From Spirogloea muscicola (taxonomy: Eukaryota; Streptophyta; Zygnematophyceae; Spirogloeales; Spirogloeaceae), in contig WELB01000063.1 of NCBI GenBank assembly GCA_009602725.1, positions 224,382 to 288,381 of the forward strand: 64,000 nt of DNA. Reading direction: 5' to 3'. Below are positions 6,922 to 61,192 of this stretch, in pieces. Below the pieces are notes generated by a model. It searched no databases and was not told the DNA's origin. It saw only the letters and a program-made list of their open reading frames with translations. Positions within the stretch are counted from its first letter, which is position 1; each line of letters begins with the position of its first letter. The position numbers and the translations under genes are program-made.

Positions 6922-7400
6922 GGCGGCGGGCGGCGGCGGCGGCGGCAGCGGGGGGGGCTGGCGGCGAGGGCTGCGACGGCAGTGGAGGCAGCAGGTGTGA
7001 GCTGGGATCCAGCGACAAATTGCTGGCTGCTCGTTCGCTCGCTTTGGCTGTCTTGGCTCTTTTTGGCCTCCGAGCAGCGTGGTATTGCGTGCGCTTGTTC
7101 TTCTTAGCGCCTCCCCTGGCCCCCTTCTCGTACTTTGTTCCTTCCATTTTGGGCTGGCTTTTCCAGCCCCTTATCCTCAATGGGCGAGCCCTTCCTCCGC
7201 TATGTAGCAGGCACGCCCCCCCCCGGTAAGAGTCAGGACAAACCATAAAATACCCATAAATGTAAAGCGTCAGTCCAGCCGACAGCCACCTATACAGGGC
7301 CTGCGGGCTTAATCCGCGCCCTGTTGTGGGCATATAGCTTTTGGGCTAGCGGGGTGGTTCCCGTTACAATATCTATCTCTGCTGATTTCACATCGCTCGG
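6922..7400. repeat. GC-rich leader plus hairpin repeat copy
   Basis: A GGC-triplet run at about 6929-6958 lies directly upstream of the DUF427-A start. At 7095-7205 sits a full copy of the longer hairpin subfamily (AGCGCCTCCCCTGG, then GGGCTGGCTTTTCCAGCCCC, TTATCCTCAATGGGCGAGCC). It is the same unit as at 455-560. Confidence 0.6.
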
Positions 7401-7493
7401 CCCCGTTTTACTTTTCTTTTCCTTTTTTTTTGGAAGGGCTGCTTCTACTCGCTTCTACTCGCTTCCCCGCAGTCGCTGCTTAGCTCGTAGTTT

Positions 7494-7690
7494 GGCCCCT
7501 TCGAACCTTGTCAATTCTTTTCGGGCTGGCTTCTCACAGCCCTTGCCCCCATTGGGAGAGCCACTTCTGGAGCTGGCCCCCCCACCCGCTGGCGAAGGAG
7601 GCGGGCCTTCTGGAAGAAGAAGTGGCTCATCCAATGGGGGCAAGGGGCTGTGAGAAGCCAGCCCGAAAAGACAAGGTTCGAAGGGGCCAG
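7494..7690. repeat. Foldback pair of hairpin repeats
   Basis: A left arm at about 7494-7568 (GGCCCCTTCGAACCTTGTCA, GGGCTGGCTTCTCACAGCCC, CCCCATTGGGAGAGCC) is mirrored by a right arm at about 7614-7690. The inter-arm spacer is about 45 nt. Each arm also contains its own small GGGCTG/CAGCCC stem. No ORF is implied. Confidence 0.75.
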
Positions 7691-7765
7691 ACTGCGAAGG
7701 GGCCAGAAAGAGAGAGTGGCTCTCCCAATGGGGGCAACGGCTGTGAAAAGCCAGCCCGAATTGAC
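7690..7765 (-). repeat. Solo hairpin repeat downstream of a retroelement 3' end
   Basis: On the minus strand this reads GTCAATTCGGGCTGGCTTTT, then CACAGCC and CCCCCATTGGGAGAGCC. It follows the stop side of the minus-strand retroelement fragment at 7838-8503 by about 80 nt. The order and orientation match those seen at 13365-13500 and 58990-59120. Confidence 0.6.
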
Positions 7766-7837
7766 GAAGATTCGAAGGGGCCAACTGACGGAGGAGCCGA
7801 AAAGCGGCATGTCAGAACGGGTGTAGGATGGACCACT

Positions 7838-8503
7838 CGGTAGCTACGAGTGAGGAGCCTCTAATCTGACAGACTAGCAGCCGCAAAACAATCCCCCCGA
7901 CGAAAGCCAGAGGCTGCGGCGAGAGCACGGCCAGCACGCAGATGCAAGGCGTGGGCCATGGTCCGCTGGAGGGACATTGAAAGACGCATGCGATAAACCT
8001 GGGCCCACAAGCCAGCGGCGTTGAAGTCAGCCGGCTCACCTCGCCAGCGGGACACGGCACGTCGCGCAAGCCTGGCTAACACTTCGAGCCACTGGGACCC
8101 AAGAAATTCCGTGCACATCCACGGCCAGGGGTACAAACTCGTCTCCAGCCGGAGAGCGTATTTGGCCGCCTTGCTGCTAGCGGCCTTCGCCGCAGCATGG
8201 CCAGCCTGCGAGGCAGAGAGCTCCAAATTGGATCGGTCTACCACATCGGTGATGACCACGTCTGCAATGTTGGGCGCCTCCCGGCGTCGAGGCCACCAGG
8301 TTCAGCCGGCGCGTGTGTAGTCCGTCAGCCTTCTGGAGAATTGGCATTCTGGAAGTGTTCTCCATCGCCACCGTGTAGCCGGCTTCCACAAATATGTCAA
8401 ACATGGCATCCCTGAGGAGGTCGTGGGCTGTCGTGCGTTCACCTTCAGTGGCGCAGCGGAGGAATGCGTCGCCAGCTCCGCCCTGTCCCCCGGCCAAAAG
8501 CAC
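7838..8503 (-). pseudogene. Degenerate non-LTR retroelement C-terminal fragment
   Basis: Conceptual minus-strand reading gives THDLLRDA-like, TRRLNLVA..GG, DVVITDVVD, then LQRTMAHALHLRAGRALAAA and ASLSD. An in-frame TAG replaces the next codon before RLLTR. The same sequence runs through fragments at 12.6-13.4, 20.0-20.4, 27.2-28.1 and 59.1-59.4 kb. The DLVA..GG..DVV pattern resembles the PD-(D/E)XK-like C-terminal region found after reverse transcriptase in algal non-LTR elements (inference). Frameshifts and the stop make this copy dead. No reverse transcriptase core is present in the window. Confidence 0.55.
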
Positions 8504-8504
8504 T

Positions 8505-8700
8505 ATCTCAGAATTCCATTCCTTTGGGCTGGCCTCTCCCAGCCACCAGTCTATCTGGCCGCGCTTGCTTTCTCAGAAGTAGTGGTGGTTCCGGAAGGCC
8601 CTCCCCTCTCTCGCTGGAAAGAAAGGGCTCTCCCATAAAAGGTAGGGGCTGGGAAAGGCCAGCCCAAAGAGAATGGACAAGGTCCAAAGAGCGGGCCTCT
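8505..8700. repeat. Diverged foldback pair of hairpin repeats
   Basis: The left arm (about 8512-8580) reads TTTGGGCTGGCCTCTCCCAG and CTGGCCGCGCTTGCTTTC. The right arm (about 8635-8695) reads GGGCTGGGAAAGGCCAGCCC followed by AAAGAGAATGGACAAGGTCC. It is the same subfamily as the near-perfect foldback at 51619-51768 but more decayed. Confidence 0.55.
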
Positions 8701-8734
8701 GGAAGGTTGCTAAGGGCTCTTGCTTGCATCCCAG

Positions 8735-8960
8735 AATATAATTCTTTTCGGGCTGGCTGTTCACAGCCCTTGCCCCTTTTGGGAGAGCCACTCTTATTTC
8801 CGTAGCCACGCAGAGGTCTTAGGCGGGTCAACTTCTTCTGATACCTTCGTTTTCTGGGCTGGCCAATCAAAGCCATCCCCCTCTGCTGGAAGAGTCTCCC
8901 TCCTTTTCATACCTTATTATTCTGGGCTGGCTTTTATAGCTCTCGCCCCCATTCGATGTA
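8735..8960 (+). repeat. Three decayed solo hairpin repeats
   Basis: Direct copies lie at about 8740-8800 (TCGGGCTGGCTGTTCACAGC), 8858-8895 (CTGGGCTGGCCAATCAAAGC) and 8925-8955 (CTGGGCTGGCTTTTATAGCT). The stem half-sites become progressively mutated from first to last. Confidence 0.5.
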
Positions 8961-11820: not shown

Positions 11821-12579
11821 GGGGCTAAGTAAGGTGGCGAAGCAGCAGTTACTTCGAGGAAGGGGCGAGGGCTGTGAAATGCCAGACCCCGGAAAAAGAC
11901 TGAATGAGGTTCCAGAACGGTGGGGAAGGCGTCTGTCAAGCTCATGGCGAAGTTATGACAGAAGGGGCACAGTCTGCACGATTTTCGCTTTGAGAGCAAG
12001 GCCAAAACGAGCCAATATATTGTTCAGGCAAAAGCACGAAGAATGGGGGCAAAGAGTGTGGAAGAACGCGATATTTGGAGACCACGGGCGGCTTCGAGGG
12101 AAGGGGGGAGCTGGGGGGCGGGAGCGAAGCTGCGGGCTCGCAAGCCGCCACCGCCCGCCGCCACCGCGATCGCTTCCGTCACACTGCCATCTCCGCTCCG
12201 CTCCCCGCACCGTCTCGTGGCCTTTCGAGGCCACGAACAGGGCGTCGCGCCGTCAGCGTCTCCGCGGCCCCGCTTGCCGGGGGAGCTTCCGCTCCTCCGA
12301 CATTGTCCATTCTTTTTTGGGCTGGCTCTGCTAGCCCCCCCTTCTCTCAGGGCAAGCACTTCTTTTTCGCCGGCCCTTCCTTCCCCTTCTCCCTCCATCC
12401 GACCTTCGAGGGCGCGCCCGGCTGCTCTCCGCCTCCTCCCCTAGGGCGGCGGCGTGGTTATCGGCGCTCCCACTCGTGCTTAGCTCGTGTGGCCCCTTCG
12501 AACCTTGTCAATTCTTTTCGGGCTGACTTCTCACAGCCCTTGCCCCCATTGGGAGAGCCACTTCTTCCCACTCCACGCG
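11821..12579. repeat. Intergenic repeats: hairpin copies and a family-B fragment
   Basis: A minus-oriented decayed hairpin copy lies at about 11840-11915 and direct copies at about 12303-12365 and 12480-12570. Around 11998-12035 is the end of the second repeat family (GAGCCAATATATTGTTCAGG CAAAAGC). The remainder is GC-rich with no supported gene. Confidence 0.5.
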
Positions 12580-13365
12580 GCGCTCACCATGCCTGACGAG
12601 GTCTTCAGGACGGCGGTCCACCGGCTCTTGGGCCTCCTCCCTCCCTGCCTCGTGGGCGTGACTTAGTGCAAGTGCGGTGCCCGTCACGCTGCACCTGCAG
12701 AGTTGGCAGCCCGTATGCTCCGTTGCGCGCACGGGGGCGAGCGGACCGCTTCCCACGACCTCCTGCGAGCTGGTATGCAGGGGGTGTTTTCCGGAGGCTG
12801 GCTTTAAGGTCGCGGTGGAAAACTCCTCCATAATGCCCATCCTGCCGGGCGCGGACGGCCAGCCCCATACGCGACGCGCCGACCTGGTCGCCATCCCGCC
12901 CGGCGGCGGTCCCCGCATCATCGCTGATGTGGTGACAACTGACTGCATCGACTCCGCCAATCCCACCAGATCGGCGTCGTTTGCAGGGCACGCGGTCGGC
13001 CAGGCGGCCCGGGGCAAGGAGCGAAAAAATGCTGATCACCGAGTGGGGGATGCATTCGCGGCCCTGGCGATGGATGTACACGGGGCTTTCGGCAGCCGCT
13101 GGCTGGATCTCATTCAGCGCGGCTTGCCCGCCAGACCATTGACCGGCGGCCGGGTCTGCCAGGGGCGATGCCCGGCTTCAACGCCGCCGGTTCGCTCGCA
13201 CAAGTCGTCCGCATGCGCCTGGCCGTATCGCTTCAACGCTCCCGTGCCCACGCCGTCCACACGCGAGCAGGCCGTGCTATGGCCGCCGCCTCTGGGTCTC
13301 GGCGCAGTGCCTCTTTCCCTGCAGCGAGCTACTCAGACCTGATGTTGCTCACTCCTGGGTACTGA
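12580..13365 (+). pseudogene. Longest degenerate retroelement C-terminal fragment
   Basis: From about 12680 the reading gives LHLQSWQPVC, FPEAGFKVAVENSS, TRRADLVAIPPGG, IIADVVTTDC, HAVGQAARGKERKNADHRV and AFAALAMDVHGAFGSRWLDL. After a frameshift near 13160 it gives VVRMRLAVSLQRSRAHAVHT, RAGRAMAAASGSRR and SYSDLMLLTPGY, then a stop at 13363-13365. It is the best-preserved of at least seven copies and is likely a C-terminal nuclease-like region of a non-LTR retroelement (inference). The frameshift and the absence of upstream reverse transcriptase make it non-functional. Confidence 0.6.
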
Positions 13366-13424
13366 GCTTCACTCTGCATCGACTATGTGTTCTGCAGTGT
13401 TCTTTAGTGTAGTCCTCTTTCCGG

Positions 13425-13530
13425 CTCCTCTTTCTTTGGCTTTGGACATTGTCCATTCTTTTTTGGGCTGGCTTTGCCAGCCCCTCTTCTCTATGGGCGC
13501 GCACTTCGCTCTGCTAGCCCCCGCTTCTCT
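13425..13530 (+). repeat. Hairpin repeat in the 3' flank of the retroelement fragment
   Basis: CCGGCTCCTCTTTCTTTGGC, TTTGGACATTGTCCATTC, then GGGCTGGCTTTGCCAGCCCC TCTTCTCTATGGGCG. It starts about 60 nt after the retroelement stop. The same 3' flank follows the retroelement end at 59118 on the minus strand (59055-58985). Confidence 0.65.
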
Positions 13531-19984: not shown

Positions 19985-20040
19985 TCTTTATTTTGGCTGG
20001 CCTTTTCCAGCCCCTATCCTCAACAGGCGAGCCCTTCTTT
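19985..20040 (+). repeat. Hairpin repeat copy abutting a retroelement fragment
   Basis: It reads TTTTGGCTGGCCTTTTCCAG, CCCCTATCCTCAACAGGCGAGCC and runs straight into retroelement sequence at 20038, so the two are adjacent without spacer. Confidence 0.6.
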
Positions 20041-20224
20041 CAACGCCGCCGGTTCGCTCGCCCAAGTCTTCCGCTTGCGCCTAGCGGTATCGCTTCAACG
20101 CTCCCTTGCCCACGCCGTCCACACGCGAGCAGGCCGTGCTATGGCCGCCGCTTCTGGGTCTCGGCGGAGTGCCTTCCCTGCAGCGAGCTACTCAGACCTG
20201 ATGTTGCTCACTCGCGGGTACTGA
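20038..20224 (+). pseudogene. Retroelement 3'-end fragment
   Basis: It encodes FNAAGSLAQVFRLRLAVSLQ, AHAVHTRAGRAMAAASGSRR and SYSDLMLLTRGY, then a stop. This is a 5'-truncated copy retaining only the last roughly 60 codons, typical of incomplete non-LTR insertion. It supplies an uninterrupted version of the site that carries an inserted hairpin repeat at 59118-59400. Confidence 0.6.
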
Positions 20225-20284
20225 GCTTCCCTCTGCATCGTCTGTGAGTTTTGTAGTGTTTTGTAGTGTAGTCCTTTTTCCTTT

Positions 20285-20405
20285 GGCCCACGCCTTGCAT
20301 CTGCGTGCTGGCCGTGCTCTCGCTGCGGCCTCCGGCTTTCGTCAGGGGGATAGTTTACCGGCAGCTAGTCTGTCGGATGTGAGGCTCCTCACTCGTAACT
20401 ACTAA
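20285..20405 (+). pseudogene. Second retroelement 3'-end fragment, other subfamily
   Basis: Reads AHALHLRAGRALAAASGFRQ, AASLSDVRLLTRNY and a stop at 20403-20405. It is closer to the 7838-8503 copy than to its neighbour at 20038-20224, so two subfamilies lie in tandem. Hairpin repeats follow at 20440-20640. Confidence 0.6.
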
Positions 20406-20435
20406 GTGGTCCATCCTCCCCCGTTCTGCCATAGC

Positions 20436-20640
20436 CTCTTCAGGCCCCGCAGTCGCTGCTTAGCTCGTAGTTTGGCCCCTTCGAACCTTGTCAATTCTTT
20501 TCGGGCTGGCTTCTCACAGCCCTTGCCCCCATTGGGAGAGCCACTTCTTCTTCTTCTTTTCCCGGCTCCTCTCTCTTTGGCTTTGGACGTTGTCCATTCT
20601 TTTTTGAGCTGGCTTTGCCAGCCCCTCTTCTCTATGGGCG
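20436..20640 (+). repeat. Two consecutive hairpin repeats, the first in its extended form
   Basis: The first (about 20436-20550) shows the long unit: CAGGCCCCGCAGTCGCTGCT, TAGCTCGTAGTTTGGCCCC TTCGAACC, then GTCAATTCTTTTCGGGCTGG. The second (about 20570-20640) is the TTTGGACGTTGTCCATTC type. They follow a retroelement stop by about 30 nt. Confidence 0.65.
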
Positions 20641-21305
20641 GCACTTTCTTTCTTTCTTCTTCCGCCTTCGCCGCGCTGCTGCGGAGTCACAGCTGGTCGC
20701 CGTCCACGTGGCGCGCTCGAGGAGCTTCCAACTCTGTCGCCAAGGGTAGCGCTGTTGCCGCCACGTGGCCTGCCACGCGGGCGCGGCTCAGCAAGCCTCA
20801 AACCGTGGGGAAATGCGGGCCCCACTCAAAAGACTGCTCTGGATGACCGTCACTGTGAGAGTGGCAGTTAGTCTTTCTCATTGCCCCTCGCCTCCTAGCT
20901 GCTCGGCCGCTCGCGGCGGTCGCGGCTGCGGCGGCGGCGGCAGCGGCAGCGGCAATCCGGCGGCTGACCGCTTCGGCTCAGTGTCCTTGTCGCGCAAGTC
21001 GCTCTCCTGTATCGCGGATCATTGTGCCTGGAGTGGTGCGAGGACCTGCGCCTGACGCTCCGATGGTGAGGCCCACGCCCGCAGACTTTGGCAATGGCAG
21101 GAGCTGGTGCTCTGGTCGTTGGCCAAGCCACGCTCCGCCGTCTCGTGGCGACCAGGGCGAGCCCTGGAGCGTCACGGCCGGTGGCTTTGCTGAGCTCTTT
21201 CCGTTGTTCCTAGTGACGAGTGGTCCTCAGCTGCGAATGTAGCCCTGGTGTGGCGACCGGCATGCTCATTGGGAAGAGTCTTGGCAGGCGACCCCCGACA
21301 CGGCG
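20640..21305. other. GC-rich intergenic, upstream of DUF3754 gene
   Basis: No gene can be supported. The stretch contains a GGC-rich patch (20915-20960) and probably the promoter of the gene starting near 21306. Confidence 0.4.
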
Positions 21306-27960: not shown

Positions 27961-28115
27961 GAATGCGGTTATCATTGAGTCTACAGCGCTCCCAGGCACT
28001 CGCGATACACCAGCGTGCCGGTCGTGCATTAGCACAGGCTAATGGCTTCCGTGGTGGTGGTTTGGTGCCTCAGCTTAGCTTGTCAGATATGCATGTGCTC
28101 ACTCGGGGATATTAG
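27960..28115 (+). pseudogene. Retroelement 3'-end fragment, third subfamily
   Basis: Reads RSQALAIHQRAGRALAQANG, FRGG, PQLSLSDMHVLTRGY and TAG at 28113-28115. Unlike the other copies it is followed by a family-B repeat rather than by a hairpin repeat. Confidence 0.55.
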
Positions 28116-28374: not shown

Positions 28375-28495
28375 AGAAGAAGTGGCTCTCCCAATGGGGG
28401 CAAGGGCTGTGAGAAGCCAGCCCGAAAAGAATTGACAAGGTTCGAAGGGGCCAAAGTACGAGCTAAGCAGCGACTGCGGGGCCTGAAGAGGATCT
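28375..28495 (-). repeat. Extended hairpin repeat, solo copy
   Basis: AGAAGTGGCTCTCCCAATGG, GGGCTGTGAGAAGCCAGCCC, GAAAAGAATTGACAAGGTTC, then CGAGCTAAGCAGCGACTGCG GGGCCTGAAGAGG. It is an intact example of the unit, about 115 nt. Confidence 0.65.
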
Positions 28496-43590: not shown

Positions 43591-45238
43591 CTAGTTGCCA
43601 TAGAACTTTGTCCGCACAAAGATGACCAGCAGCACAACAAGTGCCACCACAACAACTGGTGCCCACTTCTTGATGAAAGCCTGCAGAAAAGGGCAGTTGA
43701 GTGTTCAGCAGTTATCTCGGTCCTCAATGGAGACAGGCATCAGCCTAAAATCCTCATGTGAGATTGCCCTTCCCCTGCCTTCACTACTTGGAGTAGGGGA
43801 CTCGCCTAGTACATATACGGGCCACTGAGCAAAAGACTTGCGAGACCCCTAGGTCACCTGATGCTCACAGCCTATTCAAGCCAAGGGGTTCTGGAGCTCT
43901 ACAGCTGAGCGTGCGAGGCTGCAAACAGCCAGAGAAGTTGACTGCTCCAGGCAGTGCTCTCGCAAAACACAATATATGAACATCTAAGAAGCCCCGTTGG
44001 TGCGGAAAATGAGAAGGATGTCCATGACAGGTAGACCAGGGCCACTTGGCTCACCTGCCGGCTGAGATCCTTTGCTTTTGATGCGTACAAGCGTGCCTCG
44101 GACGACAGCTTGCTTGACATTTGGCTGGCCTCTGATAAATACACGCACACAGAACTACACATGAGGAGCTATCCAGCTCTCCTATACATCACTACTACAG
44201 CACTAGAGCTCTCCTCTTGGGCAAGGGGAGTAGTCTCCATTGGTGGGACTGGCCGATGGCTCCAGCGATGCGAGGCCACATGACCTCAGCAAGTAAGCGT
44301 GGTGCAAGGAACTCACGGTCCAGGCGTTCGCCAACGCCCAGGACCTCCTGGATGTTGCGTGTCATGATCTGCTGCACCTCGATGAGGTCATCGTTGAGCT
44401 TCGACAGGTTGCGCTGCGTCCGTGTATCGAGGTACAGCTTCCGCGTCTTCTGGATGAATGTGTCTGGCAGTGATATCCAGGGCCAGTGCACCCACCAGCA
44501 ACACTGTGAGTAACTGTAAGCATCGGAGGGAGCCCGTCGGACCCAAGAGACTAAACCCTGGGCGTAAAAGCAAGGGTGCGACTTCAGTTCTGGTCATCGG
44601 CATCAGAGAGTGGGAATAATGACCAACAGAAATCAGCGGAATCTCGCCACTCCTCGCGCCTCACCAAACTTGATGAAGGCGTAAGGGCGAGCGACAGTGT
44701 CGATCTGGCCGCCATTGACCTTCTCAAACTCCCGCTGGAGCTCCTCCAGGTACTGGTACGCCAGCTTCTTGGGGTACGAGCGGTCGCACAGCGTCAGGTA
44801 GCACACGTTGCCCTCGATGATGTAGCTGCAAGACGAGCCACAGCAGGCGGCAACAGGCCAGCCTCTGGCTCAGCTCAGCAATGGCTGTACTTAAGTTGCC
44901 AATTAGTGGGCAAACGTCAGTCGCTGGAAAAGGTGGGGCGGCGGGGAATCGATCCCCAACTGGAAGAAGTAGGGCCCCGTCTCGATGGACATGCGCGACG
45001 CCTGCGGGCCGCCGCCCTGCGACAGCCGCTTGAAGATGGTCTTTGCCTGCCCCTTGTACACCTCCAGCCCGCTGCCGCCGCCGCCGCCGCCGCCGCCGTC
45101 GCCGCCGCCGCCGCCGCTCACGGAGCCCTGCGGCGGTGCCGCCGCCGCATCGGCCGCGGGCGCCGCCCGATCCGAGCCCAAAAGCGCCGCAGCTGCGCCC
45201 GCAGACTCCTGGCTATGGCCGTCGCTGCTCCGCCTCAC
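43591..45238 (-). CDS. SEC22: SEC22-type R-SNARE (longin v-SNARE); 5' end unresolved
   Basis: Exons 44825-44665, 44463-44317, 44131-44055 and 43680-43591 are firm and in phase. An upstream exon ends at 44961 after IETGPYFF and joins the next to give FFHYIIEGNVCYLTLCDRSY. The longin domain continues PKKLAYQYLEELQREFEKVN to TVARPYAFIKF. The SNARE helix reads RNLSKLNDDLIEVQQIMTRN IQEVLGVGERLD, with the central-layer Arg, and the end is one membrane anchor (VVVVALVVLLVIFV) with a short FVRTKFYGN tail. SEC22 mediates ER-Golgi vesicle fusion. The exon before YKGQAKTIFKRLSQ is dominated by Ala and a run of about 20 Gly (CCG triplets at 45061-45118). This is foreign to the family, and the expected first longin strand (M-V-x-L-T-type) was not found. 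The true start could lie upstream of 45238. Confidence 0.85.
45061..45118. repeat. CCG triplet run inside SEC22 upstream exon
   Basis: Near-perfect CCG/CGG triplets interrupted once by GTCG, coding poly-Gly on the minus strand. Confidence 0.8.
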
Positions 45239-46753
45239 CGCGCCGCCGCCGCCGCCGCCGCCGCGGCCGCCGCCGCCAGCCTGCCGCGTATGGCGGCGTC
45301 GTTGGCGTTGTCTACTCCACCGTCAGCAGTCATTGGTCATTCGACAGCGCGTCACCCGTCAGCTCCGCCCCAACGGCGTCACGCTTGTGCTGGACCCTAC
45401 CTGTCGTCGCCGAAAGCGAGCGGTGCGCTTGAAATGAAAATGGTGGCCAATTTAATTCAGTACTTTGTCCAGGCAAAAGCTAGTGCACAAAGTATAAGGC
45501 TACATAAGACGAAGCCTTATGCTAGGGTGGCTAAGGTAACAGTGTGACGCTAGTCACCTGGGGTGAGCACGTAAGAGAGAGAAGGCGCACGGTGCGCATG
45601 AACTGAAAGGGTAGCCAGTTCGAGCCAATACTATGTCCAGGCAAAGAAACCACGCCGAAGCAATCAAGCAGCATGCTTGACACGGCATACTTTGGCAGGT
45701 GCTTGCTCGTAAGTCACTGCATGACCAGGGCGACAATAACGAGTGATGGATGATACAGCGTAGTCATCGATTTTCATACAGCTGTGTTGTCTTGTGGACA
45801 GGCCCTTCTCCTTTTATCTTATCTCCAAGCCGCTTTCTATAGTCTTTGAAGGCTGTTTAGTCTTCGAAGTCATCTATAATCCTCTTGGGTCATTAGTGTT
45901 CACTGCATCTCATCCTGGCAACGAAGTCAAGACCCTCAGGCAAGCCCTCGGCAGCCAGCAGCATTAAGGCCGTCGAAAAGGACGGGTATCAAATTGCCCG
46001 ACAGTAGTAGACGAGTAGTAGGTGAGGCGCCTAAGTCCGCGAGGACGCCCACCACAGTCGGCGCCCTAGCGCAATCCGACTGCACGACGCAGTCCCTGTG
46101 TATTGGACGAGCCAATGCCAGAATGCAGCAAGTGTGGTGCAAAGAGGTATAGGTAGGACTATCTACCCGAGATTTGTGCAGGCTGCCCAAGGAACCCCAG
46201 CAGGTTGCTTCAAGACGACCAGTGCCAATGAGTGACTCACAGAAGACTGTGACAAAGTGGACACAGCTAATCTGATTTGTCATGTCCCATCCTCGAACCT
46301 GGAGTGGATATGCACATCAAGACAACAGAAGGTCATCGCTATCAATGACCTTGACGCTGGAAGTACTGTTCCAAATGTGACAGTCAGCTCATGAAAAGTG
46401 ACAAGTAGCTGCCGATTTGGGAGGAAACCCTATGCTTTGATTGGCCCCTCATCTAACCACCAGATACCCAATGTATGCAACCACATATGCAACACGATCC
46501 CAGCATTGGGGATCATAAGCAGAAATGCGATCAGCTGCGAGCGGGCCGGCTGTTTGCCAAGCCACACTGGCACCATCATCATCAACCCCAACAAATGCCC
46601 TCCAAACACACCCATCTACAAAATCTTGCTCATGCAGGGCTGTCCTACTGTGAAATTTGAGTCAATGTGACGTAAACAATAGGTGATTAAGGACAAGCCT
46701 GACAGGAGTGATGGGATGACAAGAGTGATAGGCTTGGTCTCAAGGCAAAGGTT
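45239..46753. repeat. Intergenic with two family-B repeats in tandem
   Basis: Family-B copies lie at about 45415-45510 (GCGGTGCGCTTGAAATGAAA, TTTGTCCAGGCAAAAGCTAGTGC) and 45575-45660 (GGCGCACGGTGCGCATGAAC, GAGCCAATACTATGTCCAGG). The remaining sequence to 46753 shows no gene. Confidence 0.5.
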
Positions 46754-51618: not shown

Positions 51619-51768
51619 ACCTTGTCCATTCTTTATGGGCTGGCCTCTCCCAGCCACCACTTAATCTGGCCGCGCTTGCTCCTTGACTTACCCTCTTCTG
51701 CTACTGGAGCAAGCGCGGCCAGATTAACTGGTGGCTGGGAGAGGCCAGCCCAAAAGAATGGACAAGGT
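51619..51768. repeat. Near-perfect foldback element
   Basis: Arm 51619-51682 (ACCTTGTCCATTCTTTATGG GCTGGCCTCTCCCAGCC...GCGCTTGCTCC) and arm 51705-51768 are reverse complements with only a few mismatches or indels. The spacer is about 22 nt. The arms are the hairpin repeat of the CTTGTCCATTC subfamily. It lies in the promoter-proximal spacer about 230 nt upstream of the OLA1 start. Confidence 0.85.
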
Positions 51769-52445
51769 CTGAAGGAGTCGGAGTGCTAAGGACTGAGACA
51801 GCAGTAAGCGAACTCTCAGTAACCTCTCGTCAGTAGATGCAAATCTGCTACTCCAATGCGACTAGCGGCTTCTGACTAGGGGTTGCAGAGTTCTAGATGG
51901 ACCAGGCACTTGATTTTCTGTGTTTCTTCTGTGCTTGGTTTAGGAGTCCTGTTGGTGCGTCCCCTTGAAGTTGGTCCCATCGGGATCCCGACTGGCGTTT
52001 CACATCCACGCCTACTACTGGAGATTGCTCTGTATCAAAAAGTGAGCTCCTACAAGAGCCTTGGCTTAGCTTAGCTGTGGCCGTCATGCGCACCGCAGCG
52101 GAGCACTCTCTGCCTGCGCGGCTCTTGATGTCACGCCGAAGCTCGTGGCCGAGGCACCCACATGGTCGCCAGACACTTTAGCAATGCTTGTACTACCCCA
52201 GTCGACAGCCATGCACTAACTCCAGGCCAGGCAATTGACTCGAGCCACTGGCACCCACTGCATTGCTAGAAATTACTTGGCATGCTGCATCGCATGCGGG
52301 GGCCTGGCATTTCTTGAAGAGTACGGCATTTATTCAATGATGAGCAACCATTAAGCAACGGCGCTGCCTTGAAACTAGACATGTAATTCGCTTGAAGCTG
52401 CGGGCAGGTGCAAATCTTACAATTCTAAGCAAAGCATTGATGTTT
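51769..52445. other. Intergenic, no gene recognised
   Basis: Contains only the candidate poly(A) signal of the SIS gene (52417-52421). Confidence 0.45.
52417..52421 (-). promoter_or_regulatory. Candidate TGTAA poly(A) signal of SIS gene
   Basis: Plus strand TTACA, 25 nt beyond the stop at 52446. Confidence 0.45.
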
Positions 52446-53922
52446 TCACTCCATGTTTGTGTGGCGGACAAGCATCTCATCCGTGGAGATGTTGAGCGCG
52501 CGGCGGAGGAGGAGGACCACGATCTCAGCGAGCACAAACAGCGCGCCCTCAAAGATGCTGCCCATCGGCAGCAACTCCTCCTCCTCCTCCACCGCCCCCA
52601 GGCGGGAGTCGCTGGAGGCGGCAATGTCGCCACCATTCAGCTCATCCAAACTGGCCGGTATGTGGGAGGCCTCCATATTCGCTACAATAGACTCCATGGA
52701 GGCCGCCTCGTAGAAGCGGTGGCCCTGGCTGGCGTTCGCCTCGGTTGGCGCCCCTGGCTCAATGCCCAAGGCATGATGGAGTGAGCGTTCATCTTCTGCA
52801 GCTTCGACAACAGCAGCCTCGTCAGGCCTGCCAACCTCAGGCGCGGAGGTGGCAGCTTGGTCACTTTGCAGCTGTGGCAGGCAGTTGGCAGCAATGGCCG
52901 CGCTGCCAACGGTCACTGGTGGCGTGGCATCTCCGACGTCGCCTAGAGTGCGGGGCTCCCTCCTCACTGAGAGCTGCTCCACCGGCGGCTCCATAGCGGG
53001 GCTGACCTGAGTGTCAGCCATCGTCTGCGCAGGAAGCACTGCAATGCTGTCGGCGAGAGCTGAGGCGGAGCCCTCAGGCCGTGCTGTAATCACTACAGTC
53101 CGCGCGCCGGCGCCTCCTGCGACCCCCAACAGCGCGTTGACGGTGGAGAACCCCCCCGGCCCAGCACTGGCCAGAAAGAGGTCGCCTGCAGGGGACGCGC
53201 CGCCAATACTGCTTAGTCGCCCCAGACGGCAGCGCTGCACAGCAGCCACGACTTGGCAGAAATGCGGAAAATAATCTCGACGCCAGCCATTGGCATGTTG
53301 GCGGCTGCTCAAGATCGCGTCATCACGCTGCCTGAGTCTCACCTTTGCCGACGGCTGGCGTTGACATATCCCCGACAACATGGACGCGCAGCCCTGTCAT
53401 CAGCGCAAGGGGTAGACAGGGCTCAGCGACGACTGATGGTCCGATCTTGATTGATTATCGACGCCTTCTAGAGCTGCAACTGCTGCACGGTGAGGCCAGC
53501 CAATCAAAGCGCACAGACAGGCTGGCCGCTGCCAGACATCGATAGCGGCCAAGGCTGCGAATTGCTGCTCAAGTGTTGTCGCAGAACTGCATGGCAACAA
53601 TGGCAAACAAAGCCGCCGCCACCGTCGTCGCTGCCGCCTCCGCCGCAGTATGATCAGCTCGAGTGGTCCAGCACAATCACAAAACTCTCCCCAACTGCAG
53701 CTGGAGGCGGTGCTCACCAAGATGTGCCATGCGCATGGCAAAGGCGCGCATCATGAGGCCTTCTCGACCGACGCCGTAGAAGAATATGGCGCCGTCTCGG
53801 TGCTCCAGGACCTCGTCCACGAGCAGCTGCGCGGGGTCCGCGTGCTGGTCGGCGCCGGCGCGCAGGAACACGGCGCTGATGTCCGCCAGCGCCTGGTGCG
53901 CCAGCGATGCCGCCGACGTCTT

Positions 53923-53973
<51 letters not shown>

Positions 53974-53988
53974 GCCGCCTGAATCCAT
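52446..53988 (-). CDS. SIS-domain sugar isomerase, 6-phospho-3-hexuloisomerase-like
   Basis: Three exons, 53988-53718, 53393-53343 and 53185-52446, join in phase to about 353 aa. After MDS and about 18 Gly, the SIS fold begins: SLAHQALADISAVFL, IFFYGVGREGLMMRAFAMRM, GLRVHVVGDMSTPAVGKGD, LFLASAGPGGFSTVNALLGV and GARTVVITARPEGSASALAD SIAVLPAQTM. It then resumes at LLPMGSIFEGALFVLAEIVV and ends RHTNME. This is the layout of 6-phospho-3-hexuloisomerase-like SIS proteins (GxGRSG-like loop and SGPGxxST phosphate loop), so a phosphosugar aldose-ketose isomerase is inferred; the substrate is not determined. About 140 acidic, Ala/Glu-rich residues are inserted between IAVLPAQTM and LLPMGS, in one uninterrupted exon. 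The poly-Gly run is coded by CCG triplets at 53925-53981. It is divergent from the SPOUT1-like gene. Confidence 0.82.
53925..53981. repeat. CCG triplet run coding poly-Gly
   Basis: About 18 CCG triplets in a row in the first exon of the SIS gene. Its length is likely polymorphic or poorly assembled. Confidence 0.85.
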
Positions 53989-54536
53989 CGGCGGACCACA
54001 ATGCGCGCCCGAGCCCCCTTCCCTCCGCCTCCACCGCGGCAGCCGGGGTCCGAGATAAAGCGGCACTGCCGATGACGCGAGCGCACGGCCCTGCCTTAAG
54101 CAGAAACGGCGCCTGTCGTGAGCGCGACACAGCGAGAGCTCGAGAGCCTGGCGCGGCACCCGCGCCGGAGTCGCAGAGCCGCAGGGCGGCGACGGCGGCG
54201 GCGGCGGCGGCCGCGAGCTGGTCCTGCCCCGCAGCTTTAGTCTGGCGCAGCGAGGCGGAGGGGGTTGGGGGCGAGGCCGAGGAGGGGCACGGAGGATGGG
54301 GGACCCCGGAGCGGAGCTGCACCCCCCATTCGCGGCGGCTGCTCCACAGGTAGCTGTTACCGCGTGGAGAGGGCTGCGGCATTCGACTACGGAATGGAGA
54401 ACCGGGAACGTCGTCCCCCGCTGACTGTGCGCCCCGCCCAGGGGACCTGTCCCCGCTGGCGGGGCCGGACGGAACGGAACGTGCAATCCCGCTGTCCCGT
54501 ACGCTTTCTCGTTCCAGCGACTGACAACATCTATGT

Positions 54537-54570
<34 letters not shown>

Positions 54571-54676
54571 CGTCGTGTGCGTGAGGTCTTAGCTCCGCCC
54601 TCCAGCTCCGCAGCAGACGGCGACTGGCAGCGAGCGGCGGGTGTGTGGCGTCGTCCGCTCGGCGGGCGCTGCCGTC
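53989..54676. other. Head-to-head spacer between SIS and SPOUT1-like genes
   Basis: Very GC-rich, with a CCG run at 54538-54572. The 471-codon open frame on the minus strand here is a by-product of composition. Presumed bidirectional promoter. Confidence 0.4.
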
Positions 54677-56964: not shown

Positions 56965-59117
56965 GCTGCCACTGAGCTTTATTGAGGGCTAGCCGACTTA
57001 CAGTGAAGCGCTTTTGGCCCATGGAGTTGTGCTTAGACTGCGGTGCCCATCACCGGGGTAGCACACAATGGTTACGGCGCTGTTTGATTTACTGGCCATT
57101 CTTTGCGGCTCCGCTACGAGGTGAGATGTTGGTCTGTCAATTACAGGATCAGAATTGTTCGATCACAGGACAAATGGTGTGAAGCAGTCACCTTGAGTAC
57201 AATTAGAGGGATAGTCTATTCTGTCGACTGAATCTGATGTCAGAATCATGGGACAGTGCCTCAGAATGCAATGTAAGCTCATGCAGTTAAAACAGGCATT
57301 CTCCTTCTTCCATGCAAAAAATCTGGCTATCCTGTTAGTATCTGTTTTCAAAGCAGAGGAATATTCCGGTAAGAGCAATACATGTCTCCACCAATCAGAT
57401 CTTTCTTGGGACTTGGCGGTACTTGCTCTGAGCTAAACCTTCGCTCAATCAGCTGGCACCTTACCTTTTAAGTGGGCCCCCAACTGCACGACAAGAGGTA
57501 ACAAAAAGTCTTGCCCACTGCCATTATTTGAAAGGCCTGCTGTTCTAGTCAGCATGTGGCGTTCTTGTGCATTGAGACTTATTTCTGGAGGAGCATCAGC
57601 AGACGCTTTGCCGCCGTGCTTTGTGATGCGATCCAGTAACAATCACCTGTGGCTCCAAGAATTGTTGCACCACTTGCAACAGTTTATAAACCAATAGATC
57701 ATCAGCCAGAAAGGATCAGGAAGGGTGCCATCGAACTTGCTATTTGACCCCACGCCCGGGCCTTTGCGCGGGTCTCACTAATTCATGTGCTAAGTGGCTG
57801 GGCAATCTCACTCCCAAAGGAGTTTCGCCACCCTGAGCAAGCCATTAGCCCGGTAGTAGGAAAGTAAGCGGCTGGATTCACTCATTTTCAAGCTGACGTT
57901 TTGAGCCTGATGCAGATTTTGTTTGTAAAAGCACCATGGTAGACAGGCAGAACAGTAATAGCAATTGATGATGTGGGCAAACAGGTTATGTCAGGAAAAG
58001 CAGAGTGCAGCACAGTCAGGAGGTGTACAACAAGGTGCAACCAGAATCATGTCAATTTTCAGGAATCTTTAGAAATCTATAGAAACCCGAGGGCTAAGAC
58101 CTAGATGTAAGTCTTGAGGTCATCCTGTTGCAGTCTGGAACAGGTAGCTTACCTCTTTTCGGCTTACTGCACTGTGGTGCTAGGGGCTTAGGGCGTCGAC
58201 CTCCTTCTAGGTTGCCCATTCAAAGCCATGTCCACTATGTCGAAGAGCACGCTCCCACTGTTGGGCAGCTCGCGGTGGACAGAGGATGTTCAGAGGCAGG
58301 TTGCAGGTGCTCATAACCTGAATTGAAGTTGCAACATAAGAAGCTCCCATCGGCTCGAAAGAAAGTGGCTCCCCCAATGGGGGAAAGGGCTGTGAGAAGC
58401 CAGTCCAAGAAAGAGTTGACAAGGTTCGAAGGGGCCACACTACGAAGGGGCCGAAAGCGCTATCTCAGAACTGGGGGAGGATGAACACTCAAGGCATGGC
58501 TCGAGGGACGGCGCGCGTGCTGAGGGCAAGGGTAGTGTGTAATCAATGCAGACGGCCAGAGCGCCCAACTTTCACAGGCAAGCACATCCATAGATGCAAG
58601 TCGGGTGCTGTTGCTTAGGAGAGTCAGGCAGGCTAGGGGAAGAATTTCTTACGAAGGTAGCGATGGCAGTGAGAGGCAAGCAGCTCTTCCACAAAGAAAG
58701 GGAGGCCAGCCCAAGCCAGTACACTGCTTGTTAGCAGATAAAAGTAAAATCTAAAGAGAGGCCAAGGTAACAGAACGTGAATGCAATTGGAAGGGGGACT
58801 AAGGAGGGCTGCAGAGGGCCAGAAGGTGGAGCAGGCGACGCGCCAGCAGCACAGGCTGCAGTGGCGGGGAGCTGAGGTGCGTGGTCGTCTGGCCGCACTG
58901 ACGCCGAGAGGGCCTTTCTTCCACTTGAGCGAAGGAAGGAAAATGGGAGGCCACATGGCCAAGCGGCAAATTCAAAGAAGTGCTCGCCCGTAGAGAAGAG
59001 GGGCTGGCAAAGCCAACCCAAAAAAGAATGGACAATGGCCAAAGCCAAAGAAAGAGGAGCCGGAATAGGACTACACTACGAAACACTGCAAAACACATAG
59101 ACGATGCAGAGGGAAGC
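56965..59117. repeat. Intergenic with hairpin and family-B repeats
   Basis: 56965-58340 shows nothing recognisable. A minus hairpin copy lies at about 58362-58440 (GAGAAGCCAGTCCAAGAAAG AGTTGACAAGGTTCGAAGG). A family-B-like stretch is at 58690-58760 (GGCCAGCCCAAGCCAGTACA). A minus hairpin of the TTTGGCCATTGTCCATTC type is at 58985-59055, 3' of the next retroelement fragment. Confidence 0.5.
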
Positions 59118-59400
59118 TCAGTACCCACGAGTGAGCAACATCAGGTCAAGAAGAAGGGGGTCTCCCAATGGGGGCAAGGGCTGTGAGAAGCCCGCCCGAA
59201 AAGAATTGACAAGGTTCGAAGGGGCAAGAGGCACGCCGCCGAGACCCAGAGGCGGCGGCGGCCATAGCACGGCCTGCTCGCGTGTGGACGGCGTGGGCAA
59301 GGGAGCGTTGAAGCGATACCGCCAGGCGCATGCGGAAGACTTGGGCGAGCGAACCGGCGGCGTTGAAGCCGGGCATCGCCCATTCAAAACCCTCCGCCGT
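59118..59400 (-). pseudogene. Retroelement 3'-end fragment interrupted by a hairpin repeat
   Basis: On the minus strand: FNAAGSLAQVFRMRLAVSLQ, AHAVHTRAGRAMAAAASGSR RRA, then a hairpin repeat (59150-59235: CCCCTTCGAACCTTGTCAAT to CCCCCATTGGGAGA), then DLMLLTRGY and a stop at 59118-59120. The uninterrupted version of the same site is present at 13300-13345 and 20160-20205. About 20 nt of retroelement sequence is missing at the junction. Confidence 0.65.
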
Positions 59401-59528
59401 CACACCGTTGGCCGCAGCCTGACGGCGGGAGTCGTTGGCCAGCCGCAAGGGAACGACACGACCGCCGCCTTCCCAGCCGGGCGCGCCCGCTCCGCGGCGG
59501 AGGCGGCGGCGGCGGCGGCGGCGGCGGC

Positions 59529-61192
59529 NTGCTGGCGGGCGCGCCGGCGCCGGCGGCGGGCGAGATCCTGCGCGCCAGCATCGTCGCCGACGCGCGGCGC
59601 TCCATCTACTTCGACGCGTTCGGCTTCGGGCGGCGCGGCCACTTGGACATCACGCTCTCCAACGTCAAGATCGGGAAGCTGGACGTCACGGAGACGACGG
59701 TGGAGACCGACCGGGCGCTGATGGGGTTCTACGCCGTCTCCGAGCTCCGCGACGGCCCCAGCCTCGTGGCCAACGAGTCGTGCCTCTTCCCACCGGGCAG
59801 CCCCTTCGAGCGCCTCTTCACGATGCAGAAGGCCCACGACGAGACCAACGTGAACGGCTCCTACCACTACGGCCGCGACGTCGCGGCGCCCGCCATGCTG
59901 CGCATCGTCTTCATCAACTGCCAGTACCAGCAGGCGCAGGTGACGAACATGGATGTTGAGCTGCAACTGTTCAACGTCCTCGCCAATGGCCGCCGCGACT
60001 ACCTCCCTGCCGGCAAGACCCAGTTGCCGGCCTTGTACCTCGCCTTCTTCATCGCCTACACCACTGCGCTAGGCGTCTGGTTGTGGGTCTGCCATGGCGC
60101 GCGCGAGTCGGTGCACCGCATCCACATCCTCATGGCCGTCCTCATCCTCGTCAAGGCCCTCACGGTCCTCTCCCTCGCCGGCGAGTATAGCCGTGTCAAG
60201 GCCACCGGCGTGCCGCACGGCTGGAACATTGCCTACTACATCTTCTCCTTCTTCCGCGGCGTCATGCTCTTCACGGTCATAGTGCTCATTGGCACCGGCT
60301 GGTCCTTCCTGAAGCCCTTCCTCCAGGACCGCGAGAAGAAGATCATCATGATCGTCATCCCGCTGCAGGTTGGTGTCTCACAACCTTCTCATGCGTGTCC
60401 TGCGGGCTCCTTCAGTGACTAGCCTGTTACCGGCCCTTGTTTGAGCATACAGTTGCCTGAGAACCCCTGGCAAGGTTGAATGCTGCCGCTGTTCAGTAGC
60501 AGAGATGCTGGCACTGATCAGGTTCATGGCAGCTCGGAGTCCTCATGTAAGCTGTCCAAGGGCTTCAGAGGCACAGTCCATAGGTCCTGTTCTTTTCATT
60601 TACAGAGCTACCTGAGAAGGGCACCATGATATTCTGCAACAATCTGTATGCCCTGCTGCACCCCGTCTCCTACACTGCCATCCGTCACCGTGTTCCAATT
60701 AACCCAAATTACCCACCGCCTGCGAATGTGCAGGTGTTTGCCAACCTTGCATACGTGATATTCGACGAGGAGGGCATGTCGTCGGTCGAGTGGACAAGCT
60801 GGAGCAACATCTTCCACATCCTCGACATCATCTGCTGCTGCGCCATCCTCTTCCCCATCGTCTGGTCAATACAGCAGCTCCGGGAGGCCTCCCGGACAGA
60901 CGGCAAGGCCGCCAAGAACCTTGCCAAGCTGACGCTCTTTCGACAATTCTACATCATGGTGGTCTGCTACATATACTTTACACGGATCATCGTGTACCTC
61001 CTCCAGAACACCTTGCCATACCAGAATATCTGGCTTGCATTCCTCGCGGGCGAGCTGGCCACGCTGGCCTTCTACAGCGTCACGGGCTACAACTTCAGGC
61101 CTCTCAAGCAGAACCCCTACTTCATCCTTGATGATGAGGAGGAGGAAGCTGCCAAGCAGCTAGCCCTCCAGGACGAGGAATTTGACCTTTGA
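59529..61192 (+). CDS. GPR107/Lung-7TM family membrane protein (5' end ambiguous)
   Basis: Two exons, about 59529-60368 and 60734-61192, join as PLQ|VFANLAYVIFDEEG in phase. The N-terminal lumenal domain (ASIVADARRSIYFDAFGFG, LSNVKIG, ESCLFPPGSPFERLF, NCQYQQAQVTNMDVELQLFN) precedes seven hydrophobic segments starting LPALYLAFFIAYTTALGVWL. PHGWNIAYYIFSFFRGVMLF, REKKIIMIVIPLQ and FRPLKQNPYF follow, with an acidic C-tail (DDEEEEAAKQL). This matches the Lung_7-TM_R family (GPR107/108; plant CAND6/7-like), Golgi/endosomal trafficking proteins. The usual signal peptide is not seen. In frame upstream is a Gly run, and the single ambiguous base N at 59529 is the first base of a codon N-TG that would be ATG if N is A. 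Retroelement sequence ends at about 59400, just upstream, so the 5' end may be truncated, misassembled or in an unseen exon. Confidence 0.86.

Follow-up and report, generated by a model that had tools for sequence, protein, structure and literature searches.

Hairpins of the form GGGCTGG-loop-CCAGCCC recur in a 64,000-nt stretch of the Spirogloea muscicola genome, both directly behind the ends of decayed retroelements and on their own. Do they belong to the retroelement, what might they do for it, and how did the solitary copies arise? The stretch analysed (hereafter the window) comes from an assembly of 153.1 Mb and 471 contigs, in which it occupies C63:224382-288381. Fragments of chlorophyll a/b-binding genes are present in this genome (68 matches). 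One LHCII fragment of 167 aa has its highest scores among single-domain PDB chains with the moss entries 8htu and 7xqp, in keeping with a probable streptophyte alga, although a two-domain chain (9vfj) scored higher overall. A first-pass annotation had read the hairpin as the 3′UTR of the element, possibly the structure recognised by its reverse transcriptase (RT), and the solo copies as its SINE-like partners. We consider it highly probable that the hairpin is the 3′-terminal module of a set of related LINE families (A, B/B2, C, D and G), with one R2-like protein that has an RT and a putative restriction-like endonuclease (RLE) region.

Results

The window was searched with five representative tails as queries (E≤0.01). 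This yielded 34 tails, and none when the same tails were reversed. The hairpin itself, with up to 3 mismatches, matched 10 times where 0.08 matches were expected, one of the places scoring on both strands. All four pairs of retroelement end and hairpin named in the first-pass annotation exist in the orientation given there. Several of its coordinates had to be corrected, however (one hairpin lies at 20503-20522, not at about 20440), and the pairs are approximately 80-100 nt apart where 30-100 nt had been claimed. A fifth pair, absent from that annotation, was found at 51816 (-).

The first pair belongs to a broken family-A LINE fragment (12386..13362, +) that retains the C-terminal third of the ORF, with its knuckle and endonuclease-like region, and ends in LLTPGY*. 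A tblastn search with the ORF of the full-length copy L066 matches it at 12386-13120 and 13120-13362. Lying within this fragment is a truncated family-B tail of 92 nt (12476..12567, +), delimited by empty-site comparison and its border letters and accompanied by a short CCCACTC-like target duplication. The family-A 3′UTR and tail follow at 13366..13507 (+), the hairpin (13465-13483) being 99 nt past the stop at 13365. At the second pair, a family-A fragment (20026..20281, +, ORF stop at 20224) has its 3′UTR interrupted by a nested family-B copy of 274 nt (20282..20555, +) with an 8-nt duplication. This copy comprises an ORF end LLTRNY* at 20405, a 3′UTR, the hairpin at 20503-20522 (97 nt past the stop) and CTT repeats, and the remainder of the interrupted 3′UTR (20556..20646, +) has its own hairpin at 20606-20624. 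Nested insertion sites were sought inside family A only, where the 3′UTR is covered by more copies than the ORF; among them, the family-B copy at 20282 and a family-A copy in L025 are independent inserts into one and the same CTTTTTCC site in the 3′UTR of family A, with 8-nt duplications.

The other three pairs are on the minus strand. A family-B2-like end at 7715..7838 (LLTRSY, stop codon lost) is followed by its 3′UTR and, about 80 nt on, by the hairpin at 7738-7757. A family-A end at 58975..59118 (LLTRGY*) has its 3′UTR and a hairpin at 59001-59019, 98 nt past the stop, and a truncated family-B tail (59150..59225, -) interrupts its ORF end just upstream of the 59118 terminus. The fifth pair, a family-D end at 51708..51816, consists of LLTRGY*, a 3′UTR and the hairpin tail, with the hairpin 64 nt on. 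The copies at 13.4 and 59.0 kb, both of family A, do have the flank in common that had been attributed to them. Adjoining the 59.1-kb copy is an open frame of 351 aa (59367-60422, +), the C-terminal part of which we take to resemble a GPR107/108-type membrane protein with seven helices. The window also contains long GCC/GGC trinucleotide tracts (45060-45307, 53918-54006, 54528-54607 and 59500-59528).

Away from these pairs, tails occur singly, as in a truncated solo family-B copy at 28376..28492 (-) with AAGATTG repeated at its end, and in clusters. One of several clusters in the window, at 7130..8935, holds eight tails from families B, C and D on both strands (at 7130, 7503, 7616, 7715, 8515, 8623, 8740 and 8920, that at 8515-8570 being family D). 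A neighbouring tail lies within 400 nt for 30 of the 34, compared with a random expectation of 11.5 and a maximum of 24 in 5000 simulations; nesting, tolerance of gene-poor stretches or target preference could each be the cause. Such crowding, and the presence of tails within other copies, would suit an independent small mobile repeat that happened to insert just behind LINE ends. The spacing of ORF ends and hairpins bears directly on this.

Genome-wide, exact matches to GGGCTGGC N1-30 GCCAGCCC number 2267, and those to the reversed pattern, used as control, 0. Exact 21-nt copies of the family-A ORF end have GGGCTGGC 84-114 nt downstream in 429/633 cases (68%), as do 547/738 (74%) family-B ORF ends, with 0 for the reversed-pattern control in each. 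When 30 loci were picked by the protein end alone (the best-scoring 30 of 150), a hairpin lay within 170 nt in 27; the remaining three (L008-L010) have one rearranged end in common, with the hairpin at 205 nt. Spacing per family was counted on ends that had not been used as anchors, for hairpins within 170 nt and with ends near a locus edge excluded. Counted in this way, the hairpin follows 17/23 ends of family A (mode 99 nt), 9/9 of B (97 nt), 5/6 of B2 (113-114 nt), 19/27 of C (88 nt), 16/17 of D (64 nt) and 12/13 of G (52 nt). Most of the A and C ends without a hairpin (6/23 and 8/27) that were read are decayed or interrupted by another insert. The ORF of each hairpin family terminates in an LL(T/S)R.Y-type motif, followed by a family-specific spacer of ~50-115 nt. 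The fixed distance that the first-pass annotation had suggested looking for is therefore present: it is nearly constant within each family, and equal in two full-length copies at different places. Because spacing is this constant across hundreds of copies, the A and B ends in particular, the independent repeat was rejected as a candidate and we regard it as extremely improbable. Moreover, the nested sites received ORF end, spacer and hairpin together.

Hairpins were also found within 170 nt of 3/4 family-H ends and 1/5 family-I ends. The window contains a family-H ORF end, LSDMHVLTRGY, at 28115 (+), whose 3′UTR (..CAATTTCATGCGCACCGCGCGCC..) is unlike those of the hairpin families. Family I (L081, L082 and at least 150 scored matches) is an abundant related LINE with a hairpin-less 3′ end, CAAATACACGAAATCTT. 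Its copy L081 has an open frame of 1137 aa with 44% protein identity to A and ends ...GTTTGTTTCAAATACACGAAATCTT, without the GGGCTGG hairpin; the hairpin is thus the mark of one branch of this LINE group. By the terms that the first-pass annotation had set, this open-frame copy without the stem-loop counts against its reading for the LINE lineage, but not for the families which it described. Separately, a repeat like GGCCAATACAAGCCAATACATTGTTCAGGCAAAA (repeat family D15) occurs in the window at 11992, 19760, 45437, 45605 and 50693. On the opposite strand it resembles sequence that follows other LINE-like ends, such as VLSRGY in L021, and it may be the 3′ end of another LINE family.

Two full-length copies with RT and hairpin, L066 and L067, were found. 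They are ~4.3 kb long, differ at 2 positions in 4159 nt and have a single ORF, which in L066 is 1358 aa within a 1382-aa frame. The RT domain is recognisable in L066 (RVT_1, 50.7 bits). A profile built from three rows of families A and I and searched against PDB scored best with R2 proteins (9nl2, 9nl3 and 9dou, E 7.9e-9 to 6.2e-7), compared with E 0.04 for group II intron RTs and 0.53 for LINE-1 ORF2. A single ORF and an RT nearer to R2 than to LINE-1 are features of RLE-type (R2-group) elements. A phmmer search of the single ORF against PDB returned no match, an NCBIfam search gave nothing useful, and among the best 150 scored matches of a PF00078 search (84 to 140 bits for most) the LINEs (~50-69 bits) do not appear. 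Neither the 1382-aa frame of L066 nor that of L081 (1137 aa), whose N-terminus is possibly incomplete, gave a Pfam match to an AP-endonuclease domain. Motifs of the form C-x2-C...H-x3-C can be seen by eye near the N-terminus of both L066 and L081, where Pfam zf-C2H2 scores below its cut-off (E 0.017, 16 bits). Behind the RT there is a Cys/His knuckle with conserved C, C, H and C in the spacing CX1CX11-12HX3C, which departs from that published for RLE proteins. It is followed by a conserved D-x14-D...K region, in which D1199, D1214 and K1244 are invariant in the three rows. This region has no Pfam endonuclease match, and the predicted fold of the window's endonuclease piece (P0001) is poor (mean pLDDT 41.5). 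Copies lie at many sites that differ from one another, as do their target duplications, and not at the one 28S rDNA site by which the R2 clade is recognised. On these sequence features the element is probably best described as an R2-like LINE, without placement in the R2 clade itself.

At least five families (A, B/B2, C, D and G) have upstream 3′UTRs that align poorly and a last ~70 nt in common. In the ten pairwise comparisons of A, B, C, D and G, similarity relative to shuffles is z 2.6 to 11.4 over the last 70 nt, compared with -0.5 to 3.9 for the upstream 3′UTR. The shared tail consists of a leader like GGACCTTGTCCATTCTTTT, the hairpin GGGCTGG-loop-CCAGCCC, a segment like TGGGCGAGCC and CTT repeats. 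It is chiefly this modular conservation that argues for a function. The hairpin is predicted in 5/5 representative tails, with folding better than shuffles in A (z -3.9) and C (z -2.8) but not in B (-0.6), D (-0.7) or G (0.25). Covariation in the GGGCTGG/CCAGCCC stem, proposed earlier as a check, did not exceed chance: one pair is changed on both sides, where shuffling gives 1.0, and since the stem hardly varies covariation cannot support it. A possible outer stem closing the hairpin (TTGTCCAT with ATGGGCG) is predicted in A and C; in 12 tails it pairs with its own 3′ half at a mean of -8.0 kcal/mol and with the halves of other families at -7.4, so that the swap test lends it no support.

The hairpin is a conserved 3′-terminal stem-loop of the kind that characterises stringent-type LINEs. 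That it is the 3′ tail of the R2-like LINE group, as the 3′UTR reading had it, is well supported: it is the terminal part, at a nearly fixed distance per family. It also lies within the only part of the 3′UTR that the diverged families have in common, as expected of a putative RT recognition site, and recognition by the element's RT is its likeliest role. Alternatively, the tail could be kept for 3′-end formation of the transcript or for RNA stability in the host, since it occupies the extreme 3′ end and RNA processing could make use of a hairpin with a pyrimidine run behind it. We judge this rather unlikely, because the tail also terminates the DNA copies, the shortest included, so that at least its 3′ edge marks the start of reverse transcription. 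Other LINEs of this type are moreover described as needing a 3′ structure for reverse transcription (PMC5135761).

Lastly, we considered the origin of the solo hairpins. The sample consisted of the window and the surroundings of loci picked mostly by A or B ends, and since a recognisable hairpin was required, even shorter inserts escape the count. Among tails not used as anchors, LINE similarity stops 0 to at least 700 nt upstream of the hairpin in family A (n=42), 0-221 nt in B (n=51), 0-110 nt in C (n=38) and 3-92 nt in D (n=22), the upper limits being the reference lengths. It stops within 60 nt in 29, 32, 21 and 13 of these respectively, counts that are upper bounds for short copies as some short extensions reflect subfamily divergence and not truncation. 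Tail-bearing copies therefore begin at scattered points, some being only ~30-60 nt long. Six family-B copies pile up at 32 nt; the five that were read all belong to LINE subfamily B2 and continue upstream with their own 3′UTR. Something similar may hold for four C copies found at 40 nt.

Several tail-bearing copies are flanked by target-site duplications of ~7-13 bp, for which the first-pass annotation had proposed to look around solo copies. In L006, GATATTGTC is duplicated on either side of a tail of ~40 nt; further examples are ATGTCGCC (L054), TTATGAGTGAGGA (L043) and CTCTCCGTGCA (L008). Flanking repeats of at least 9 nt were found in 66/183 units, against 39.0 when 3′ flanks were swapped between units, a control so high that the surroundings must be highly repetitive. 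Taken together, the scattered 5′ ends, target duplications and excess of flanking repeats are the signature of target-primed reverse transcription halting early, and the lone hairpins look like stubs of incomplete copies and not a separate parasitic element.

The first-pass annotation had instead made the solo hairpins short, non-autonomous (SINE-like) partners mobilised by the element. Such SINE-like elements would have their own promoter and a borrowed LINE tail. Solo tails do exceed those that adjoin an intact in-frame ORF end (4/34 in the window). Moreover, four short family-D inserts (L043, L054, L034 and L030) start at or a few nt from TTGTCC, where the possible outer stem has its 5′ edge, three of them (L054, L034 and L043) with an 8-13 bp target duplication. 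This hints at either a point where reverse transcription prefers to stop or a small unit of fixed extent. However, the fixed 5′ end of a SINE is not seen in these copies: the starts in A are spread over the whole range given above, as are those in B, C and D as far as their shorter references extend, and the pile-up that was traced is subfamily B2. Scans of the window against Rfam and for tRNA genes gave no match at all, and with it no tRNA-, 5S- or 7SL-derived head. The SINE reading was therefore rejected for the copies seen and, the sample being limited, we consider it very unlikely overall.

Discussion

The LINE-tail explanation suggests a sequence of events. The protein would nick the DNA and bind the tail on its own RNA, and reverse transcription would start in the CUU repeats (target-primed reverse transcription). 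Many such events would halt within a few hundred nt, leaving solo hairpins scattered. Because the tail is common to the families, the enzyme of one family may also copy the RNA of another. We tentatively raise the possibility, which we think somewhat doubtful, that at least five R2-like LINE families share a 3′ address and form one cross-mobilising pool, with tail-only inserts of ~30-120 nt as a main product of early-stopping reverse transcription. If so, a LINE would act as a genome-wide writer of ready-made hairpins. R2-type enzymes are described as being in use for RNA-templated gene insertion (PMC11331408), and a short, well-bounded tail used by several natural enzymes would therefore serve as a model of template recognition. 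The 30-60-nt inserts with clean target duplications suggest that target-primed reverse transcription can halt very early and still be sealed. There is also a warning for annotation: what looks like an RNA gene or a SINE in a genome of this kind can, for many a lone hairpin, be the stub of a LINE.

Stringent-type LINEs such as UnaL2, ZfL2 and SART1 share a conserved 3′ stem-loop with the algal group but are AP-endonuclease LINEs, whereas the algal group is R2-like. The EhLINEs of Entamoeba are dispersed in their genome. For the stringent LINEs, the 3′ stem-loop is reported to be required for retrotransposition and the tail to be common to their partners (PMC5135761). EhLINE/EhSINE are listed among RLE LINEs with SINE-like elements of common 3′ ends (PMC3747384); EhSINEs are separate units, and no such unit was found in the algal sample. 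The same source records LINE/SINE tail sharing in green algae for L1 and RandI/Dualen. In Chlamydomonas, the tails of RandI/Dualen are common to short SINEX elements, some of which end in repeats such as (CTTT)n (PMC3747384), so that here too a green-algal LINE has its tail on short copies. However, the short copies in our alga appear to be truncations, and Dualen is described as having an AP endonuclease as well as an RLE (PMC4640811), whereas no AP endonuclease was detected in the algal element.

Likeness to R2 and other RLE LINEs lies in the single ORF, the RT profile that scores best with R2 proteins, and the Cys/His knuckle followed by the D-x14-D...K region. Truncation at the 5′ end, described for R2 (PMC7650587), is likewise seen in both. 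Differences are the dispersed sites of the algal element, where R2 uses one 28S site, the knuckle, for which the published RLE spacing is CX2-3CX7-8HX4C (PMC5678591), and the tail, only ~70 nt of which is shared, whereas RNA recognition by R2 is reported to use ~250 nt of 3′UTR (PMC5135761). RLE LINEs are described as mostly target-specific, HERO being a clade with many non-specific families (PMC4640811), and in this respect, compared by description only, HERO resembles the algal group. A limited search of the open literature found no description of RLE-only LINEs from a green alga. By analogy, the algal group would work like a stringent RLE LINE with wide insertion. It is ordinary in principle; what is distinctive is its lack of a detected SINE, its strong truncation, its host and a short tail common to several families.
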